The position numbers and the translations under genes are program-made. The notes under the pieces are model-generated. The model searched no databases. It was given only the letters and a program-made list of their open reading frames with translations, and had not been told where the DNA came from. Shown piece after piece: positions 23,882-32,677 of a DNA stretch of 32,677 nucleotides (position 1 is its first letter; each line of letters begins with the position of its first letter). This DNA is from Acidimicrobiaceae bacterium (lineage in GTDB: Bacteria; Actinomycetota; Acidimicrobiia; Acidimicrobiales; MedAcidi-G1): NCBI GenBank assembly GCA_002687745.1, contig NZBE01000009.1, positions 31,709 through 64,385 on the forward strand. The letters are read 5' to 3'.

Positions 23882-25021
23882 ATGCTGGAGTTCACACAGG
23901 AACAGGATGCGTTTCGTGGTGTGGTCCGCGAGTTCGCCGAGGCCGAGATAGCGCCCCATGCCGAGGTATGGGACCGGGACCATGTCTTCCCGACCGAAAC
24001 CGTGCTGGCAATGGGCGATCTGGGCCTCTTCGGCCTGATGTTCGGATCTGAGTGGGGTGGCGCCGATGCCGGCCTCACCACCCAGTGCATCGCCATCGAG
24101 GAGGTAGGTCGGGTCGACCAGTCGATGGGCATCACCCTCGAGGCAGGTGTGTCGCTGGGCGCCAGGCCGGTCGCCGAGTACGGCACCGACGAGCAGAAGG
24201 CGCAGTGGCTTCCCGACCTGGTGGCTGGTCGCCGCCTGGCTGCCTTCGGGCTCACCGAGCCGGGGGGCGGCTCAGACGCCGGGGCTACCGCCAGCCGGGC
24301 CGTGATGGACGGAGGCGAATGGGTCATCGACGGGGCCAAGGCGTTCATCACCAACTCCGGCACCGACATCACGAGCCTTGTCACCGTCACCGCCAGGACC
24401 GAACAGGGCGTCTCGGCAATCGTCATTCCCGCTGGCACACCGGGCCTGACGGTCGAGCCCGCCTACAGAAAGATGGGTTGGCATGCCTCGGACACACACG
24501 GCCTGGTCCTGGAGGACTGCCGTGTGCCGGCAGAGAACCTGCTGGGTGAACCTGGCCGGGGCTTCGCACAGTTCCTCTCCACCCTCGACGACGGGCGTGT
24601 GGCAATTGCAGCCCTTGCAGTGGGCCTCATCGCCGGATGCCTCGACGAGTGTGTGCGCTATGCCAACGATAGAACCGCGTTCGGCCGACCCATCGGCTCC
24701 TACCAGGCGATCGCCTTCAAGTGCGCCGACATGGCGACCTCGCTGGAGACGTCCCGACTTGCCACCTACCACGCAGCCGGACTCCGCGATGCGGGCAGGC
24801 CCTACAAGAGGGAGGCAGCCATCGCCAAGTTGCACGCCACCGAGGCAGCCGTTGCAGCAGCCCGTGAGGCGACCCAGGTGTTCGGTGGGTACGGCTTCAT
24901 CGACGAGACCCCCGTCGCCCGTTTCTACCGTGACGCCAAGATCCTCGAGATCGGTGAGGGAACCAGCGAGATCCAACGACTCGTCATCAGCCGTGACCTG
25001 GGGTTGGGGGAGCCCCGGTAG
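23882..25021 (+). CDS. Acyl-CoA dehydrogenase
   Basis: A 379-residue acyl-CoA dehydrogenase of normal length. Seen are the FGLTEPGGGSDAGATASRA loop near residue 122, WVIDGAKAFITNSGTD near 148, and the C-terminal catalytic motif EIGEGTSEIQR, with the general-base Glu in the position used by short-chain enzymes. The substrate is likely a short or branched acyl-CoA. GGGAGGA lies 11 bases before the ATG. It is 38 bases ahead of the kynurenine operon and may be transcribed with it. A role in tryptophan breakdown is not established by sequence: it lacks the motifs I would expect of glutaryl-CoA dehydrogenase. Confidence 0.9.
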   Translation: MLEFTQEQDAFRGVVREFAEAEIAPHAEVWDRDHVFPTETVLAMGDLGLFGLMFGSEWGGADAGLTTQCIAIEEVGRVDQSMGITLEAGVSLGARPVAEYGTDEQKAQWLPDLVAGRRLAAFGLTEPGGGSDAGATASRAVMDGGEWVIDGAKAFITNSGTDITSLVTVTARTEQGVSAIVIPAGTPGLTVEPAYRKMGWHASDTHGLVLEDCRVPAENLLGEPGRGFAQFLSTLDDGRVAIAALAVGLIAGCLDECVRYANDRTAFGRPIGSYQAIAFKCADMATSLETSRLATYHAAGLRDAGRPYKREAAIAKLHATEAAVAAAREATQVFGGYGFIDETPVARFYRDAKILEIGEGTSEIQRLVISRDLGLGEPR

Positions 25022-25059
25022 GGTCGGCCCTCGGAACTGGAACCGACCAGGAGTAGGCG

Positions 25060-25596
25060 ATGCCCGCAGCCAACAGCATGAAGGCCTTCAACTTCCAGGC
25101 CTGGATCGACGAACACCGCGACCTGCTAAAGCCACCTGTCAACAACAAGCTCATCTGGACCGATGGTGACCTCATGGCATTCATCGTCGGTGGGCCCAAC
25201 GTGCGCACCGACTACCACGACGATCCTGTCGACGAGTTCTTCTACCAGATTGAGGGCGACATGATCCTGCGGGTCATGGAGGAGCCGGGTAGCCCGCCGG
25301 TCGACATCCCCATCAGGGAGGGCGAGGTGTTCTTCCTGCCGGCGCACACCCGGCATTCTCCGCAGCGCCCGGAGGCCGGAAGCATCGGCCTGGTCATAGA
25401 GCCGGCACGGCCGCCGGGTGCGCCGGACGGCTTCGACTGGTACTGCCCCAACTGCTACCAGCTCGTCTACCGGGCCGAGGTGCTGCTGAAGTCCATCGTC
25501 ACCGACCTGCCGCCGCTGTTCACCGCGTTCTACGGAGACGAGGAGAAGCGCACCTGCGGATCCTGCGGACACCTGCACCCGTCGCGGGACGGCTAG
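25060..25596 (+). CDS. nbaC: 3-hydroxyanthranilate 3,4-dioxygenase
   Basis: A 178-residue cupin that opens the ring of 3-hydroxyanthranilate to 2-amino-3-carboxymuconate semialdehyde. Fe(II) ligands are H53, E59 (YHDDPVDEFFYQ) and H99 (HTRHSPQRP). Substrate-binding R49, R103 and E114 align with the known enzyme. Two CxxC pairs, C129/C132 and C166/C169, form the rubredoxin-like iron site typical of the bacterial type. AGGAG lies a few bases before the ATG. It is the first gene of the kynurenine cluster, although its reaction comes last. Confidence 0.95.
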   Translation: MPAANSMKAFNFQAWIDEHRDLLKPPVNNKLIWTDGDLMAFIVGGPNVRTDYHDDPVDEFFYQIEGDMILRVMEEPGSPPVDIPIREGEVFFLPAHTRHSPQRPEAGSIGLVIEPARPPGAPDGFDWYCPNCYQLVYRAEVLLKSIVTDLPPLFTAFYGDEEKRTCGSCGHLHPSRDG

Positions 25597-25638
25597 TGGA
25601 CGCTGACATCCCTTGGCACGACATTTCCGAGGTCGCCA

Positions 25639-26934
25639 GTGCCTGAGCAGTACGACACCACCCCTGCCTGCGCTGAGCGTCTCGATGCCGAGGACCCGCT
25701 GGCGCACATGCGCGACGAGTTCGTCATGCCGGTGGGCCCCAACGGAGAAGCCGAGGTCTACCTGGTCGGCAACTCGCTCGGGCTGCAACCTCGGGCAGTG
25801 CGTACATACATTGAGGCCGAGCTCGACAAGTGGGGCAGGCTGGGGGTGAAGGGCCACACAGAGGCAGACCGGGAGCCGACCTTCCCGTGGGAGTCCTACG
25901 AGGAGTCCCTCAACCACCAGATGGCTGCGGTCGTGGGAGCAGAACCCGAAGAGGTCGTGGTCATGAACGGCCTGACCGTGAACCTCCACCTGCTCATGAC
26001 CACCTTCTACCGCCCCACGCAGGAACGCTTCAAGGTGCTCATCGAGGAGCACGCCTTCCCGTCAGACCACTTCGCTGCGGCTTCCCAGGTACGCCATCAC
26101 GGCAGGTCGGCCGAAGAGGCCCTGGTTACCGTTTCGCCCCGTCCCGGCGAGGACCTGCTCAACGCCGAGGACCTCATGGCGGCAATTGCCGAACAGGGCG
26201 ATGAACTGGCCCTCGTCCTGTTGCCGGGGGTGCACTACTACACGGGCCAGGTGCTTCCGCTGGCAGACCTGGCGGACGCGGCACACCGGGTCGGTGCCAT
26301 GGTCGGCTTTGACCTCGCCCACGCCGTCGGGAACATACCCCTGGGCCTTCACGACAGCGGAGCCGACTTCGCCGCCTGGTGTACCTACAAGTACCTCAAC
26401 TCCGGTCCGGGCGCCACCGCCGGATGTTTCGTCAACCAACGCCACCTCGAACGGACCGACCTCAACCGGTTCGAGGGCTGGTGGGGGACCGACAAGGCCA
26501 CCCGATTTCAGATGGACACGGTGTTCAACCCGATTCCGACGGTCGAGGCATGGCAACTCTCCAACCCTCCGGTCTTCTCCATGGCACCCATCAGGGCCTC
26601 GCTTGAGGTGTTTGAAAGAGCCGGCGGGATGGGTCCGCTGCGGGAGAAGAGCGAGAAGCAGATCGCCTACCTCGACCACCTCCTGGACGAGGTCCTGGCA
26701 GGTCGGGTCGAGTCGATAACCCCAAGGCCCCTCACAGAGCGGGGATGCCAGTTCTCGCTGCGGGTAACTGCGGACGGCTACGCGGGACGCGGTGTGTTCG
26801 ATGCCCTGGAGGCGACAGGTGTCGCCTGCGACTGGCGGCATCCCGACGTCATCAGGATTGCGCCCGTTCCCCTCTACAACTCCTTTGCCGACATTCACCG
26901 GTTCGTCCAGGTCCTCGACGGGATCCTGTCATGA
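25639..26934 (+). CDS. kynU: Kynureninase
   Basis: A 431-residue PLP enzyme that cleaves kynurenine or 3-hydroxykynurenine to anthranilate or 3-hydroxyanthranilate plus alanine. Family sequence includes YLVGNSLGLQPR near residue 35, the PLP-phosphate region VVVMNGLTVNLHLLM near 110, VGFDLAHAVGNIPL with the cofactor Asp near 228, and the lysine K251 in CTYKYLNSGPGA. It starts with GTG at 25639 behind a weak GAGG, while its stop overlaps the monooxygenase ATG (ATGA). The 42 bases between it and the dioxygenase gene carry a 16-codon open frame (see findings). Confidence 0.95.
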   Translation: MPEQYDTTPACAERLDAEDPLAHMRDEFVMPVGPNGEAEVYLVGNSLGLQPRAVRTYIEAELDKWGRLGVKGHTEADREPTFPWESYEESLNHQMAAVVGAEPEEVVVMNGLTVNLHLLMTTFYRPTQERFKVLIEEHAFPSDHFAAASQVRHHGRSAEEALVTVSPRPGEDLLNAEDLMAAIAEQGDELALVLLPGVHYYTGQVLPLADLADAAHRVGAMVGFDLAHAVGNIPLGLHDSGADFAAWCTYKYLNSGPGATAGCFVNQRHLERTDLNRFEGWWGTDKATRFQMDTVFNPIPTVEAWQLSNPPVFSMAPIRASLEVFERAGGMGPLREKSEKQIAYLDHLLDEVLAGRVESITPRPLTERGCQFSLRVTADGYAGRGVFDALEATGVACDWRHPDVIRIAPVPLYNSFADIHRFVQVLDGILS

Positions 26935-28298
26935 CCGATCACGTGACCATCGTGGGGGCCGGGCCTGCCGGGTCGATGCTCTCCATTCTGCTGGCCCGCC
27001 AGGGCCTGTCGGTGACCATGTACGAGAGCCGCCCGGACATGCGCACCACCGACATCGGGGCTGGACGCTCCATCAACCTGGCGCTCGCCACCCGGGGCAT
27101 CGAGGCGCTCAGGGAGGTCGGTGTGATGTCCGAGGTCCAGGAGATCCTGATCCCCATGATGGGGCGGCTGATCCACGACGACGGCGGCACCTCGATGCAG
27201 CCGTACGGCAGCCGTCCCCACGAGTACATCAGCTCGGTCTCACGTACAGCGCTCACCAGCATCCTGCTGGATGCCGCAGAGGCCACCGGGCAGGTGGAGA
27301 TCAACTTCGACATGCGCTGTCGCGGGGTCGACTTTGAGGCCAACACCCTCCAGTTCACCGACTCCACCTCGGGTGAGGCGAGCCGTGTCCCGTTCACCAC
27401 GGTCTTCGGCACCGACGGGTCGGCATCGGCGGTGCGCGACGCCCTGCTCGAGGTCAACGGCGGCAGCGTTGACATCGAACCCCTGGTGCACGGCTACAAG
27501 GAACTGACCATGCCGGCGGGTTCCGACGGCAGGTTCCAGATCGAAAAGGAGGCCCTGCACATCTGGCCCCGGCGGGACTTCATGCTCATCGCCCTTCCCG
27601 ACCTTGAGGGAACGTTCACGGTCACGCTGTTCCTGGCCAACGAGGGACCCACCGACAGCTTCGAGTACCTGGCATCGGGTGGCGATGTTCTCGGCTTCTT
27701 CGAGGAGCACTTTGCCGACTTTGCTCCCCTTGTGCCCGACCTGGCCGACCAGTTCACCACCCACCCCCATGGCCGCCTCGCAACGGTTCGAACCACAGGT
27801 TGGGCGCATGGCGACCGGGCGGTGATCCTGGGTGACGCCTCACACGGGGTGGTGCCCTTCCACGGTCAGGGGATGAACGCGGCCTTCGAGTCATGCATCG
27901 TGCTTGACACCTGCATGCGTGACCACCCGGGCGACTGGGCCACGGCGTTCGCAGAGTTCGAACAGGGCCGCAAGCCCGACACCGACGCCATAGCCGACAT
28001 GGCTGTCGCCAACTACGTGGAGATGAGCTCAAGCGTGGTTGACGAGCGCTACCAGCTCAAGCGTGCCGTGGCCCTGGAGCTGGACCGCCTGTGGCCCGAG
28101 CAGTTCACACCCCGGTACGCAATGGTCATGTTCAACACCATTCCCTATGCCGAGGTGCAACGACGGGCCGCCCTGCAGGGAGAGGTCCTCGAGCGGTTGA
28201 CGGTGGGCCTGATCGATATCGGTGAGGTCGACTGGCAGGCGGCGGAGAGAATGGTGTCAGAACTCGACTTCAACCAGGCCTCAGACACTGGAGCATGA
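26931..28298 (+). CDS. kmo: Kynurenine 3-monooxygenase
   Basis: A 455-residue FAD- and NADPH-dependent hydroxylase that makes 3-hydroxykynurenine. The FAD motif GAGPAG lies at residues 9-14, RSINLALATRGIEALREVG near 45 is distinctive for this enzyme, and GDASHGVVPFHGQGMNAAFE near 301 is the second flavin motif. No strong C-terminal membrane anchor is seen, as expected for bacterial forms. The ATG overlaps the kynureninase stop, and its own stop overlaps the next ATG, so translation is probably coupled. Upstream in-frame sequence is a shadow of kynU and was excluded. Confidence 0.95.
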   Translation: MTDHVTIVGAGPAGSMLSILLARQGLSVTMYESRPDMRTTDIGAGRSINLALATRGIEALREVGVMSEVQEILIPMMGRLIHDDGGTSMQPYGSRPHEYISSVSRTALTSILLDAAEATGQVEINFDMRCRGVDFEANTLQFTDSTSGEASRVPFTTVFGTDGSASAVRDALLEVNGGSVDIEPLVHGYKELTMPAGSDGRFQIEKEALHIWPRRDFMLIALPDLEGTFTVTLFLANEGPTDSFEYLASGGDVLGFFEEHFADFAPLVPDLADQFTTHPHGRLATVRTTGWAHGDRAVILGDASHGVVPFHGQGMNAAFESCIVLDTCMRDHPGDWATAFAEFEQGRKPDTDAIADMAVANYVEMSSSVVDERYQLKRAVALELDRLWPEQFTPRYAMVMFNTIPYAEVQRRAALQGEVLERLTVGLIDIGEVDWQAAERMVSELDFNQASDTGA

Positions 28299-29083
28299 CG
28301 ATGGACCTCACCTACGGCCGCTACCTCAAGGTCGACGAACTGCTGGACCTCCAGGAGTGCCGCTCCGACGGACCTGAACACGACGAAATGCTGTTCATCG
28401 TCATCCACCAGGTCTACGAGCTCTGGTTCAAGGAGGTTCTCCACGAGGCCGACATGTTGGTCGCCAACATCGAGGCAGGTCGGCTGGACAGCGGAGCCCA
28501 CCAGCTCAAGCGCATCCTGAAGATCCTCAAGACCCTTGTCGCTCAACTGGATGTTCTCGAGACGATGACGCCGCTTGAGTTCCAGTCCTTCCGCAGCTTC
28601 CTCGAGAGTGCCAGCGGGTTCCAGTCGGCGCAGTTCCGGGAGTTGGAGTACGCCCTCGGCATCAAGGACCCACAGCACCTCGGGTACTTCGCCGAGGGTT
28701 CAAGGGAGCGGCTCCGCCTTGAGGAGCGCTACAACTCACCGAGTATCTGGTCCACCTTTCTCGTGTATCTCAGTACAGCAGGGTTTGCCATCCCTGCCGA
28801 CATCCTTGAGCGTGACGTCACCGCACCCACGGTTGCGTCGTCTGGCGTGCAGGCTGTGCTGTCTGACATCTACAGGACCAGTCCGGACCTCACGGAAATG
28901 TGTGAGTCGCTGACCGACCTGGACGAGGGCCTCCAGGAGTGGCGTTACCGGCACGTCAAGATGGTGCAGCGCACCATCGGTGCCAAGATCGGTTCCGGTG
29001 GGTCGCTGGGTGTCGAGTACCTCCAGTCCACGCTGTTCAACCCGGCGTTCCCCGACCTCTGGGAGATCCGTACCGGGTTCTAG
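28295..29083 (+). CDS. kynA: Tryptophan 2,3-dioxygenase
   Basis: A 262-residue heme protein catalysing the first step, tryptophan to N-formylkynurenine. By alignment to the Xanthomonas enzyme, H38 (IHQVYELWFKE) is the active-site base, R100 (FRSFLESASGFQS) binds the carboxylate, and H220 (WRYRHVKMVQRTIG) is the heme ligand. The loop usually written GTGGSSG reads GSGGSLG here, a mild variation. It is the last pathway gene in the cluster and overlaps the monooxygenase stop by ATGA. A second Met at residue 3 is an alternative start. Confidence 0.95.
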   Translation: MTMDLTYGRYLKVDELLDLQECRSDGPEHDEMLFIVIHQVYELWFKEVLHEADMLVANIEAGRLDSGAHQLKRILKILKTLVAQLDVLETMTPLEFQSFRSFLESASGFQSAQFRELEYALGIKDPQHLGYFAEGSRERLRLEERYNSPSIWSTFLVYLSTAGFAIPADILERDVTAPTVASSGVQAVLSDIYRTSPDLTEMCESLTDLDEGLQEWRYRHVKMVQRTIGAKIGSGGSLGVEYLQSTLFNPAFPDLWEIRTGF

Positions 29084-29121: not shown

Positions 29122-29751
29122 GTGAGCCACGACCACCACAGGCACGACCACGACAAGGGCTTCATGGCCAACGTCCACTGGCTGTTGAAGGTCCACAAGT
29201 TCTGGCAGGCCGACACCAACCGGGCAATTGTCGACATGGTCGATCCGCAGCCGGGTGAGAGCCTGCTCGACATTGGTGCCGGCATGGGCCCGGCCACGGT
29301 GCTGGCTGCGGCCCGGGGTGCGTCGGTGGTTGCGGTGGACCCATCAGGCCTGATGAGGTCGATCTGCGGGGTGAGGCGCCTGTTCCAGCGTGCCCGTGGC
29401 CGCATAACCGTCGAGTCCGGTACAGCTGAGAACCTCCCCGTTGCCGGCGGTTCCATGGATGCCCTCTGGACGGTCAATTCGGTGCACCACTGGGTGGACC
29501 TGGACCTGGCCTTCGCCGAGCTGGCAAGGGTGCTCGCTCCGGGCGGAAGGCTCGTGTTGATGGACGAGGACTTCACCCATCCCGACCATCCGATGCACGA
29601 GACCCACCACGGTCACGAGGATGAGATGACCGCGGTCCACGTCGAGGCCATCGCTGCATCCCTTGGCGATCTTGGACTCGACGCGACCGGCCAGAAGACC
29701 GTTGCGGCTGGTGTCCCCGTCAAGTTGATCCGGGCGACAAAGCCCATCTGA
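29122..29751 (+). CDS. Class I SAM-dependent methyltransferase, His-rich
   Basis: A 209-residue methyltransferase of type-11 pattern. Motif I is LLDIGAGMGPATVLAAARG, the acidic end of strand 2 is VVAVDPS, then AENLPVAGGSMDALWTVNSVHHWVDL and LAPGGRLVLMDEDF. The N-terminus reads SHDHHRHDHDKGF and a later loop HPDHPMHETHHGHEDEM, two His/Asp/Glu-rich patches that could bind metal. GTG at 29122 lies five bases after GGGGAG; an internal ATG at 29164 would remove the first patch. It follows tryptophan dioxygenase by 38 bases, so is probably co-transcribed, but the methyl acceptor is unknown. It could act on a kynurenine-type aromatic or an unrelated substrate. Confidence 0.78.
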   Translation: MSHDHHRHDHDKGFMANVHWLLKVHKFWQADTNRAIVDMVDPQPGESLLDIGAGMGPATVLAAARGASVVAVDPSGLMRSICGVRRLFQRARGRITVESGTAENLPVAGGSMDALWTVNSVHHWVDLDLAFAELARVLAPGGRLVLMDEDFTHPDHPMHETHHGHEDEMTAVHVEAIAASLGDLGLDATGQKTVAAGVPVKLIRATKPI

Positions 29752-29763
29752 CCGGGGGTCCTG

Positions 29764-31164
29764 TCAGGTGGTGACCGGGTCTATGGGGGTGATCCGACCG
29801 AGGGCGGCCTCGATGTCGGAGGCGCCGTCCAGGCAGAGGTCCTCCCTGTAGCGGTCCGCAATCACCTGCACCCCCTGTGGGATTCCGTCGGCCACGCCGA
29901 CCGGAACCGCACAGGCCGGGATTCCCAGGAGGTTCACCGGGGTTACGCAGCGCATGACGTCGAGCATCAGGTCCATTCCACCCTCGGCCACATCGGCGTC
30001 GTGTGCGAACGGTGGCTGGGTCCACACCGGTGCAATGAGTACCGGATTCTCGGCGAAGAACCCGGCCCATGCCGCCCCCAGGCGGTGGTACTCGGTGTGG
30101 ATCAGGATGGCCGGCACCTCGTCGGGTGGGTAGCGTTCGATCAGCTCGTTGAGCAGCCCCAGGGCCTCGTCGCTCATTATCTCGGCCGCTGCTGCGACGG
30201 TTGCCGGCATGTCGCAGCTCAGCATCCGTGCCCAGACCTCCTGGCACTGCTCTATCTCGGGCGGGGCCGCTTCGACGATCTCCCAGCCGGCCGCCTCGAG
30301 GGCTCGCGCCGCCCTGTCGACACCGTCGGCCACAGCCGGGTGGATCGGACCACCGGGAACCTCGGTGAGGACTGAGGCCCTCCTCGCAACAGGTGGACCG
30401 TCGAACGGCACGGTCACCGACTTCGGGTCGCGCGGGTGGCGGCCTGCCATGGCCTCTACACCCAGCTTCAGGTCTGCCACATGGCGGGCCATCGGCCCCT
30501 CGACGCTCATCAGCTGGAACGCCAGCGTCGGCGTGTCGGCCGGCGGCATGGTTCCCGCGCTCGGGAAGCGTCCGAACGAGGTCTTGAGCGAGGTGATCCC
30601 ACAGCAGTAGGCCGGGTTGCGGAGCGAACCGCCAAGGTCGTTTCCGAGCCCGAACGGCGACATTCCGGTCGCGATCGATGAGGCCTCTCCTCCGCTGGAC
30701 CCACCGGCGGTCAGGTCAGGTGCCCAGGGGTTGCGGGTGAGGCCGTGAAGCGGGTTGTTGGTGGTGATACGGAGGCCCATTTCGGGAAGGTTTGTTCGGG
30801 CCAGGGGGATGGCACCGGCAGCCTTCATGCGCTCCACCACCGGTGAGTCGACGGGTGGCACGGCCTCGGCCATGGCCGGTACACCGTTCGTGGTTGGTGA
30901 GCAGGTGCAGTCCAGGTTCTCCTTGATGGTGATGGGTACACCGTGGAACGGCCCCAGGGGGTCACCGGCAGCAACAGCCGCATCGGCTGCGTCGGCGCCG
31001 GCCCTGGCACCGTCAGCCAGGACGCGAACCACGGCGTTGAGGTCGCCGTTCACCTCGTCGATGCGTTCCAGGTGGGCTTCGAGCACCTCCCGGCTGGAGG
31101 CTTCGCCCCCGGCGATCATCGTCGCCAATTCATTTGCCGCCCGTGTCCACAGTTCGTCGCTCAC
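29764..31164 (-). CDS. Amidase-signature family amidohydrolase
   Basis: A 466-residue amidase with the Ser-cisSer-Lys catalytic set: Lys in ITIKENLDCTC near residue 80, and GGSSGGEASSIATGMSPFGLGNDLGGSLRNPA near 152-183 with the cis-Ser and nucleophile. The family hydrolyses amides, including acyl-amino and aryl-amide bonds; the substrate is not evident. It is convergent with the kynurenine/methyltransferase unit (12-base gap) and divergent from an alpha/beta hydrolase. It starts with GTG and appears leaderless. Whether it could deformylate N-formylkynurenine is speculative. Confidence 0.9.
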   Translation of the reverse strand: MSDELWTRAANELATMIAGGEASSREVLEAHLERIDEVNGDLNAVVRVLADGARAGADAADAAVAAGDPLGPFHGVPITIKENLDCTCSPTTNGVPAMAEAVPPVDSPVVERMKAAGAIPLARTNLPEMGLRITTNNPLHGLTRNPWAPDLTAGGSSGGEASSIATGMSPFGLGNDLGGSLRNPAYCCGITSLKTSFGRFPSAGTMPPADTPTLAFQLMSVEGPMARHVADLKLGVEAMAGRHPRDPKSVTVPFDGPPVARRASVLTEVPGGPIHPAVADGVDRAARALEAAGWEIVEAAPPEIEQCQEVWARMLSCDMPATVAAAAEIMSDEALGLLNELIERYPPDEVPAILIHTEYHRLGAAWAGFFAENPVLIAPVWTQPPFAHDADVAEGGMDLMLDVMRCVTPVNLLGIPACAVPVGVADGIPQGVQVIADRYREDLCLDGASDIEAALGRITPIDPVTT

Positions 31165-31210: not shown

Positions 31211-32104
31211 ATGGGACGTGTGACGGCAAACGGCATCGAACTCGAGTACGAGGTGTTCGGCGATGAGGCCGATCCGACGCTGCTCCTGATCATGGGCCTG
31301 GGTGCCCAGATGACCACCTGGCCTGTGGAGTTCTGTAGGGAGCTGGCTGGCCGGGGCCACCAGGTGATCCGCTTCGACAACCGTGACATCGGCCTGTCCA
31401 GCCACATGGACCACCTTGGTGAAGCGGACTCCATGGCCGCTCTCGGTGCAGCGATGGCCGGTGAGGCCGTCGACGCGGCCTACACGCTCGCTGACATGGC
31501 TGCCGACTCGGTCGGGCTGTTGGATGCCCTTGGCCACAACTCGGCCCACATCGTCGGAGCCTCGATGGGTGGCATGATCGCCCAGAGGCTGGTGATCAAC
31601 CATCCCGAGCGTGCTCTGTCGCTGACGTCGATCTTCTCGACACCCCGCTTCATTCCGGCTGATCCCGAGGTGGTGGCCGTGTTCAACTGGCCCGATCCCG
31701 GAACCCTGGAGGGTCGTATCCAGGCCGGAGTTGACGGCGCACGCATGATGTCGGGTGGCGGCTTCCCGTTCGACGAGGACCTCGTCCGCCGGTATGTGGC
31801 GGCCAACATCGACCGGTCATGGCACCCTGAGGGACAGGCGCGCCAGATGTTCGCCATCGTGGCCGATGGTGACCGCACCGAGGAGCTGCGCTCGGTTGAC
31901 CTTCCGACCCTCGTTGTGCACGGCACCCATGATCCCCTCGTCGTGCCACAGGGTGGTCAGGAAACTGCCGATGCCATTGTGGGAGCCGAGTTGGTATGGA
32001 TCGACGGGCTGGGCCACGAACTTCCGCCGGGCGCCTGGCCGACGATCCTGGATGGGATCAGCGGGCTGGTGGCAGAAGCCGAGAGGGCGGGCGCACCCGC
32101 CTGA
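31211..32104 (+). CDS. Alpha/beta hydrolase
   Basis: A 297-residue alpha/beta-hydrolase-fold protein. Oxyanion region LLLIMGLGAQMTTW, then RFDNRDIGLSSHMD, the nucleophile elbow GASMGGMIAQ with the likely catalytic Ser near residue 118, a late acidic residue in VVHGTHDPLVV, and the His in DGLGHELPPG. The pattern resembles esterase/lipase-like members such as aclacinomycin methylesterase relatives. The activity is unknown. AAAGGGGG lies shortly before the ATG. It is not the aromatic formamidase HGGYW type. Confidence 0.85.
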   Translation: MGRVTANGIELEYEVFGDEADPTLLLIMGLGAQMTTWPVEFCRELAGRGHQVIRFDNRDIGLSSHMDHLGEADSMAALGAAMAGEAVDAAYTLADMAADSVGLLDALGHNSAHIVGASMGGMIAQRLVINHPERALSLTSIFSTPRFIPADPEVVAVFNWPDPGTLEGRIQAGVDGARMMSGGGFPFDEDLVRRYVAANIDRSWHPEGQARQMFAIVADGDRTEELRSVDLPTLVVHGTHDPLVVPQGGQETADAIVGAELVWIDGLGHELPPGAWPTILDGISGLVAEAERAGAPA

Positions 32105-32281: not shown

Positions 32282-32677
32282 TCAGGGCTGGATGACTATG
32301 AGGCGTTCCTCGGTCATCTCGCGCACGGTGTAGGCGGGGCCCTCACGGGTGTTGCCCGAGTCGCGGATGCCTCCGTACGGCATGTGGTCGGCCCTCCAGG
32401 TTGGGACCTCGTTGACGAGCACGCCGGCAAAGTCGAGCACCTCGGCCGCCCGAAGCGCCTTGGCGATGTCGTTGGTGAACACGGCTGCATGAAGTCCGTA
32501 GATTGTGTCGTTGGCACGGGCCAGGGCGTCCTCGTAGTCCGTGTAGGTGGCGATGCCGACGACGGGTCCGAACACCTCGGCACAGCTCACCTTCATGTCC
32601 GGGGTGATGCCCGACAGGACTGTTGGCGAAAGGATGCCGTCTTCGCCGACCGTTCCGCCGCATTCCACGACGGCGCC
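32282..32677 (-). CDS. Aldehyde dehydrogenase, C-terminal part (partial, continues beyond window)
   Basis: 131 residues are visible, open to the window edge, so the gene continues beyond position 32677. They carry late motifs of the NAD(P)-dependent aldehyde dehydrogenase fold: SCAEVFGPVVGI with the cofactor-contacting Glu, NDTIYGLHAAVFTND, and PYGGIRDSGNTREGP. The RADHMPYGG and MTEERLIVI features resemble lactaldehyde/phosphonoacetaldehyde-type dehydrogenases more than aromatic-semialdehyde enzymes. The catalytic Cys and the start lie outside the window. It is convergent with the alpha/beta hydrolase. Confidence 0.9.
   Translation of the reverse strand, partial: GAVVECGGTVGEDGILSPTVLSGITPDMKVSCAEVFGPVVGIATYTDYEDALARANDTIYGLHAAVFTNDIAKALRAAEVLDFAGVLVNEVPTWRADHMPYGGIRDSGNTREGPAYTVREMTEERLIVIQP

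Follow-up and report, generated by a model that had tools for sequence, protein, structure and literature searches.

A kynurenine operon that probably serves de novo NAD synthesis in place of NadA and NadB in a MedAcidi-G1 actinobacterium

A bacterial kynurenine pathway that leads from tryptophan to quinolinate and on to nicotinamide adenine dinucleotide (NAD) was reportedly described by Kurnasov et al. in 2003. In passages of one published account, the aspartate route is assigned to most bacteria, the kynurenine route to some and both routes to very few, if any, and the ring closure that yields quinolinate is said to need no enzyme (PMC4217691). The DNA analyzed here (the window) is a stretch of 32,677 nucleotides from an Acidimicrobiaceae bacterium of the MedAcidi-G1 lineage, at positions 31709-64385 of contig C8 of genome G000, a 1.85-Mb draft assembly of 38 contigs that is 89% complete. 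The window carries an operon for kynurenine-pathway enzymes, and comparison of sequences suggests that the cell very likely makes NAD de novo through this operon rather than through NadA and NadB.

The operon consists of four genes on the forward strand, encoding 3-hydroxyanthranilate 3,4-dioxygenase (HAAO; 25060-25596, 178 aa), kynureninase (KYNU; 25639-26934, 431 aa), kynurenine 3-monooxygenase (KMO; 26931-28298, 455 aa), and tryptophan 2,3-dioxygenase (TDO; 28295-29083, 262 aa). Eight proteins of the window were run against Pfam and NCBIfam, and the four assignments, first made in a sequence-only reading of this DNA, were confirmed by family models or solved relatives. HAAO scored over the cut-off of NF009763 (248.5 bits; best solved relative 1YFU, E 1.1e-66), KYNU over that of TIGR01814 (426.7 bits), and TDO over that of PF03301 (best solved relative the TDO 2NW7, E 1.7e-56). 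Against TIGR03036, TDO reached 274.6 bits across its full length, below the cut-off of 390.7. No NCBIfam model was over its cut-off for KMO, whose best solved relative is the KMO 6FOX (E 4.7e-100); an open reading frame called from 26745 is the same gene with an overlong start. The four-base overlaps described between the last three genes are real, with ATGA shared by KYNU and KMO at 26931-26934 and by KMO and TDO at 28295-28298. The sole gap, of 42 bp, lies between HAAO and KYNU.

The sequence-only reading had also remarked that the genes stand opposite to pathway order. This is correct, but it is no clue to function. Outside the genus, 75 loci were fetched by KMO similarity, and 22 of them had HAAO, KYNU, and KMO on one strand; the closest named relatives of KMO are metagenome-assembled genomes titled Actinomycetota, Acidimicrobiaceae, or Candidatus Microthrix. 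The order HAAO-ACMSD-KYNU-KMO, where ACMSD is 2-amino-3-carboxymuconate semialdehyde decarboxylase, was read in 18 of the 22 loci, in 15 of them with a RidA gene in front. Because so many loci share it, the reverse order is ordinary and was dropped as a clue. The gap in the window's operon is exactly where these loci hold ACMSD. Four loci of other phyla (L268, L270, L303, and L308) read HAAO-KYNU-KMO with no ACMSD between, and the shortened order as such is therefore not unique.

The comparison among relatives covered 41 genomes: G000, 6 others of its genus (g1), 18 others of its family (f1, with sister genera g2 to g6), and 16 of the order. KYNU and KMO were searched in the relatives' genomes around HAAO only, and the NAD-gene searches across genomes covered nadA, nadB, and nadC. 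HAAO was over its family cut-off in 19 of the 41 genomes and TDO was found in 19, each in six of the seven genomes of the genus. In these six operon-bearing genomes, the median dN/dS was 0.128 for KYNU, 0.116 for KMO, 0.059 for TDO, and 0.049 for HAAO. These low values denote purifying selection, indicating an operon in use. KYNU of G001 and KMO of G004 seem broken, but the breaks are runs of N and were rejected as mutations.

The nadC gene of G000 scored 285.4 bits against TIGR00078 (cut-off, 198.4), and nadC was present in 36 of the 41 genomes (33 over the cut-off), including all seven of the genus. A nadA match was obtained in 16 of the 41 genomes, with none in G000 and none in the genus (0/7). 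ACMSD, searched across genomes at a threshold of E 1e-20, was found in 9 of the 41 genomes (two of these matches being weak) and in 7 of the 25 family genomes, and was not found in the genus (0/7). Internal stops in the ACMSD matches of G012 and G015 were not accepted as breaks; they fall ahead of the start codon and at the place where the gene naturally ends. For nadB, 14 of the 41 genomes were over the cut-off of 452.75 bits. G005, basal in the genus in a four-protein tree, had a best piece of 445.7 bits, G009 of another genus had fragments, and the remaining family genomes had no match or matches of about 200 bits or less. The sole match in the whole of G000 reached 210 bits. Such matches to TIGR00551, of about 200 bits and present in nearly all genomes, were considered as nadB and rejected; since their scores are less than half the cut-off and they are located away from the nadC slot, they are probably a paralogue of the succinate/fumarate-dehydrogenase type.

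The gene order panC-[nadB]-nadC-coaX-lysS is conserved. nadB sits in the panC-nadC slot in G005, G007, G012, and G014, and the slot is empty in G000. No nadB was present there in any of the six operon-bearing genomes of the genus (G000, G001, G002, G003, G004, and G006) or in G010, G016, G018, G019, G020, G022, and G024; for G015 and G023, no panC was observed next to nadC. A candidate nadB remnant in the panC-nadC gap of the genus was discarded, as local alignment to G005 gave essentially the end of panC only. G005 is the sole genome of the genus with nadB and the sole one without HAAO and TDO. Either an ancestral family operon was lost in G005, or the operon arrived after G005 had split off.

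In the proposed route, TDO would convert tryptophan to N-formylkynurenine, a formamidase encoded outside the operon would yield kynurenine, KMO would form 3-hydroxykynurenine, and KYNU would form 3-hydroxyanthranilate. HAAO would then produce 2-amino-3-carboxymuconate semialdehyde, which, with no ACMSD to decarboxylate it, would close spontaneously to quinolinate for conversion by NadC to nicotinate mononucleotide. Without NadA and NadB, quinolinate would have to come from tryptophan. From the sequences we infer the enzyme activities, the ring closure in the cell, and NAD as the selected product. The earlier proposal that the pathway stops at the semialdehyde and leads through quinolinate to NAD is well supported: each of the six genomes of the genus that bear the operon has nadC, and nadA, nadB, and ACMSD were found in none of them. 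A catabolic role had been linked in advance to nadA and nadB occurring elsewhere in the genome together with nbaD; a search for this combination did not find it.

The short linker between HAAO and KYNU (25596-25638, forward strand) is best read, judged on six genomes together, as what is left of a decayed ACMSD gene, corresponding to about its first 14 codons. ACMSD of genus g2 has a start codon overlapping the stop of HAAO, and its protein opens with (V/L)KIDxHAHFFP. The linker of the genus g1 is 42 bp long (40 bp in G002) and starts in the same way, on a GTG whose bases overlap the stop of HAAO. It reads VEIDAHSRFVP in G002, VEVDAHLHFST in G003, VEVDLHSLFSA in G004, VETDACSQSGPEV in G006, VETDIPSHNSSEV in G001, and VDADIPWHDISEV in the window. 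Compared jointly with the ACMSD starts of the g2 genomes G016, G024, G007, and G012, the six linkers matched at 46, 46, 49, and 55% of 38 positions, the start codon being omitted and the same six linkers being shared by the four tests. The mean under column permutation was 23-24%, and in each test none of 20,000 permutations came up to the observed match; the result held when codon phase was kept. Among 19,962 windows per locus, the ACMSD start took ranks 2, 1, 2, and 1 for the same strand, and no window of the other strand was higher. The linker of the window itself is the most decayed, matching at 13-19 of the 38 positions, so that the case for a remnant in the window taken alone rests on its kin. 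It is this remnant that would give the direction of change in the genus, from presence to loss of ACMSD.

These slots also bear on whether gaps in the assemblies alone explain the absence of nadA, nadB, and ACMSD, which would make the operon uninformative on NAD. The fragmented state of G000 leaves room for such gaps, as does the completeness of 88-95% across the genus. However, all three genes are without a match in six of six operon-bearing genomes of the genus, and the nadB and ACMSD slots are assembled and empty, the latter holding the remnant. We consider this explanation extremely unlikely.

A second scar, of 38 bp, lies before HAAO (25022-25059, forward strand), and its final bases correspond to the RidA stop codon of G001. 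RidA precedes HAAO in G007, G012, G016, and G024 and is intact in G001, G002, and G003, where 466-470 bp separate the neighboring genes. It is cut to residues 113-139 in G006 and is gone in G004, where 37 bp remain, and in the window. Searches of the window by tblastn (E 1e-6) gave no match to ACMSD, RidA, or mhpD, mhpE, and mhpF, of which RidA and the mhp genes were not sought genome-wide. The mhp genes are not in the clusters of the genus as far as these were fetched.

In the sister genus g2, G007 and G012 have the cluster TDO-KMO-KYNU-ACMSD-HAAO-RidA-mhpD-mhpE-mhpF, with nadA and nadB in the genome. The methyltransferase, amidase, and alpha/beta hydrolase lie on the other side as in the genus g1, in G007 together with an aldehyde dehydrogenase. 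The ACMSD of G007 is genuine, matching 6MGT at E 5.6e-129. This cluster looks like the older, catabolic form, and the presence of both gene sets together with ACMSD is consistent with a kynurenine pathway used for catabolism alongside NAD synthesis from aspartate. The operon of the window would have descended from such a catabolic one, with ACMSD between HAAO and KYNU and RidA ahead of HAAO. Breakdown would have turned into biosynthesis when ACMSD was deleted in the ancestor of those species of the genus that bear the operon, and RidA would have been lost later in some of them. Conversion of a catabolic operon to NAD synthesis by deletion is thus probable.

Across the wider family, HAAO was over its cut-off in 18 genomes, 11 without and 7 with ACMSD. 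Intact nadB was found in 0 of the 11 and nadA in 1 of them, and of the 7 with ACMSD 3 had nadB and 3 had nadA; these counts are not independent, the genomes being related. The single nadA belongs to G009, in which nadB is broken in the panC-nadC slot (L209:8432-9349), with no N in the fragments. An HAAO-KYNU-KMO-TDO operon lacking ACMSD is also present in G009, and in this other genus the pathway exchange is apparently under way.

The formamidase step would be encoded elsewhere in the genome. The sequence-only reading found no formamidase, which holds for the window, as it has no KynB and no tblastn match (E 1e-6) to an HGGYW-hydrolase query. It does not hold for the genome, where an alpha/beta hydrolase with HGGYW, GSSAG, and HFD motifs is encoded on contig C13 (10744-11640). 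This protein matched the kynurenine formamidase 4E11 (presumably from Drosophila) at E 3e-22, and its top match was 9N8R, named Lipase 1, at E 8e-33; no NCBIfam model calls it a formamidase. It is 48% identical to a hydrolase near HAAO in G019. A standard kynB, which had been considered as a gene that might lie elsewhere, was absent from the G000 assembly in that PF04199 had no match; what exists instead is this homologue of the different, eukaryotic-type formamidase. PF04199 proteins occur in relatives, one of them in G005. KynB is described as unrelated to the eukaryotic enzyme in a passage of one paper (PMC4243253). Since the HGGYW-type homologue lies elsewhere in the genome, the amidase of the window need not be a formamidase, and the proposal that it is a non-orthologous one is not supported; the amidase is also not kept with the operon in G002, where the alpha/beta hydrolase adjoins the methyltransferase with no amidase between (the rest of G002 was not searched). 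In genus g5, G019 (L072:1748-2770) and G010 (L073:10512-11408) have an HGGYW formamidase homologue about 0.6 kb or less from HAAO, as one might expect for a pathway enzyme.

The C13 hydrolase gene abuts a second TDO-like gene (C13:9800-10744; L194), and nine other genomes of the family contain this pair too. In all ten second TDO proteins, glycine replaces the active-site histidine that ordinary TDO has at this position, and the region of the heme histidine is kept. The second TDO may have a substrate other than tryptophan. In G000 the pair is on the same contig stretch as genes for nitrate reductase and a NarK-type transporter.

The operon is flanked by conserved neighbors. An acyl-CoA dehydrogenase gene (23882-25021, forward strand; Pfam Acyl-CoA_dh) occupies the same upstream position in the loci of the genus and in most g2 loci and is probably outside the pathway. 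Downstream is a gene for an S-adenosylmethionine-dependent methyltransferase with a His-rich N-terminus (29122-29751, forward strand; Pfam Methyltransf_11), conserved in g1 and g2, which follows TDO or KYNU in those clusters of both genera in which that end was seen. Next are an amidase-signature hydrolase (29764-31164, reverse strand; PF01425 and NF005687 over cut-off), an alpha/beta hydrolase (31211-32104, forward strand; PF00561; present in G000, G001, G002, G004, and G006), and the C-terminal part of an aldehyde dehydrogenase that runs past the window edge (32288-32677, reverse strand). The last is 80% identical to a G001 protein, and the whole gene is at L078:1997-3490. The alpha/beta hydrolase and the aldehyde dehydrogenase are kept by the operon in both g1 and g2.

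These neighbors raise the question of whether the operon is still catabolic, with the semialdehyde being degraded without a decarboxylase by the aldehyde dehydrogenase, the amidase-type hydrolase (or RidA), and the alpha/beta hydrolase. The three genes are kept by the operon in the genus under purifying selection, as is RidA where present, and on plasmid pCNB1 an amidase and a RidA protein are clustered with a 2-aminophenol dioxygenase. The pCNB1 amidase, whose record says just "amidase," is presumably a deaminase. It is only 28% identical to the amidase of the window, which was rejected as a 2-aminomuconate deaminase, and for this reason no orthology is claimed. Moreover, g2 genomes retaining ACMSD keep the same neighbors, RidA has been lost in three of the six operon-bearing genomes of g1, and neither ACMSD nor, as far as fetched, the mhp genes accompany the operon there. 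A catabolic operon would also leave NadC with no known source of quinolinate. Continued catabolism is therefore unlikely.

Several observations weigh against NAD synthesis as the role of the operon. The genomes of the family are draft assemblies with a completeness of 74-98%. The NAD route has no step for three of the proteins encoded beside the operon, namely the aldehyde dehydrogenase, the amidase, and the alpha/beta hydrolase. RidA has a median dN/dS of 0.065 among G001, G002, and G003; such purifying selection indicates that it still does something where intact and is not decaying everywhere. Among the genomes searched, no HGGYW-type hydrolase was found in G005 or in the operon-bearing G001 and G002, leaving these two without a formamidase homologue of this type. 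G005 has nadB, but its nadA search gave no match, and G009 still has nadA. Finally, G015, G016, G023, and G024 have ACMSD (without the last 30 or so residues in G023) and neither nadA nor nadB, indicating that loss of NadA and NadB is not strictly tied to loss of ACMSD. The clusters of G016, G024, G015, and G023 (L062, L063, L065, and L074) hold HAAO with ACMSD and no TDO or KMO.

The last four genomes have neither NAD route complete, and nadC is truncated, with no N present, in G015 and G018. Salvage or uptake therefore probably exists in the family, and the operon might supply 3-hydroxyanthranilate, anthranilate, or quinolinate as a different product, destined for a signal or a secondary metabolite, with NAD coming from salvage. 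Against this, HAAO and NadC are both kept in six of six operon-bearing genomes of the genus, which fits quinolinate as their shared intermediate, and family genomes with HAAO and without ACMSD have no intact nadB. We judge a different product to be very unlikely and retain de novo NAD synthesis as the role of the operon.

TDO, KMO, and HAAO each use oxygen, giving three O2-using steps per quinolinate, and the NadA/NadB route can run without oxygen in other bacteria. On contig C13 of G000, narH of a nitrate reductase is over its cut-off, and narG, truncated where the stretch ends, reached 873.8 of 1084 bits; like narG, narJ (55.5 of 59.35 bits) and a NarK-type transporter (286.5 of 311.7 bits) are under their cut-offs. 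The GC content is 65.6% in the window and 60.0-66.4% in the loci of the genus, except for G005 at 70.1%. In a study of MedAcidi-G1, genus UBA3125 has a mean GC of 63.5%, carries nar genes, and is found only in oxygen minimum zones, genus S20-B6 has a nar island too and a mean GC of 69%, and five genera are said to make nicotinate; the main text there does not contain "kynuren," "tryptophan," or "quinolin" (PMC10205998). The nar genes and GC of G000 fit MedAcidi-G1, and from this we infer a marine low-oxygen habitat for the lineage of the window.

Tentatively, and as something possible rather than probable, one deletion of ACMSD may have made an oxygen-demanding NAD pathway good enough for the oxygen-sparing NadA and NadB to be discarded, in a nitrate-respiring lineage probably of low-oxygen sea water, with a similar swap seemingly under way or separately done in sister genera, as the broken nadB of G009 suggests. 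If this is true, the NAD supply is tied directly to traces of oxygen. A testable ecological question is how the cost of three O2 per NAD ring can be borne by a bacterium with the genes for respiring nitrate. The locus would illustrate the exchange of an essential biosynthetic pathway, in which deleting one branch enzyme turns breakdown into synthesis. Stages of it are visible in one family: a full catabolic operon, RidA lost in some genomes, a decayed ACMSD remnant, and a broken nadB elsewhere.

The tryptophan-to-NAD pathway is known already; the probable conversion of a catabolic operon by deletion of ACMSD would be what is new. Among the literature matches listed, no title or abstract opening described an ACMSD-deleted catabolic operon serving NAD or kynurenine-route NAD in Acidimicrobiia. 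Like the known bacterial kynurenine NAD pathway, the system has the same tryptophan-to-quinolinate reactions, keeps NadC, and is missing the aspartate route. It differs in occurring in Acidimicrobiales-like genomes, in having a formamidase homologue of the eukaryotic alpha/beta-hydrolase type without KynB, and in the ACMSD remnant within the operon. With the presumed catabolic RidA-HAAO-ACMSD-KYNU-KMO cluster of Kangiella, Microbulbifer, G007, and G012, it shares the same genes in the same order; in contrast to that cluster, ACMSD is deleted in the genus and RidA also in G000, mhpD, mhpE, and mhpF are absent, and TDO and the methyltransferase lie downstream. The C13 homologue resembles the eukaryotic-type kynurenine formamidase 4E11 in its HGGYW, GSSAG, and HFD motifs, but it is bacterial, is paired with a divergent TDO homologue, and has Lipase 1 (9N8R) as its best-scoring solved match.

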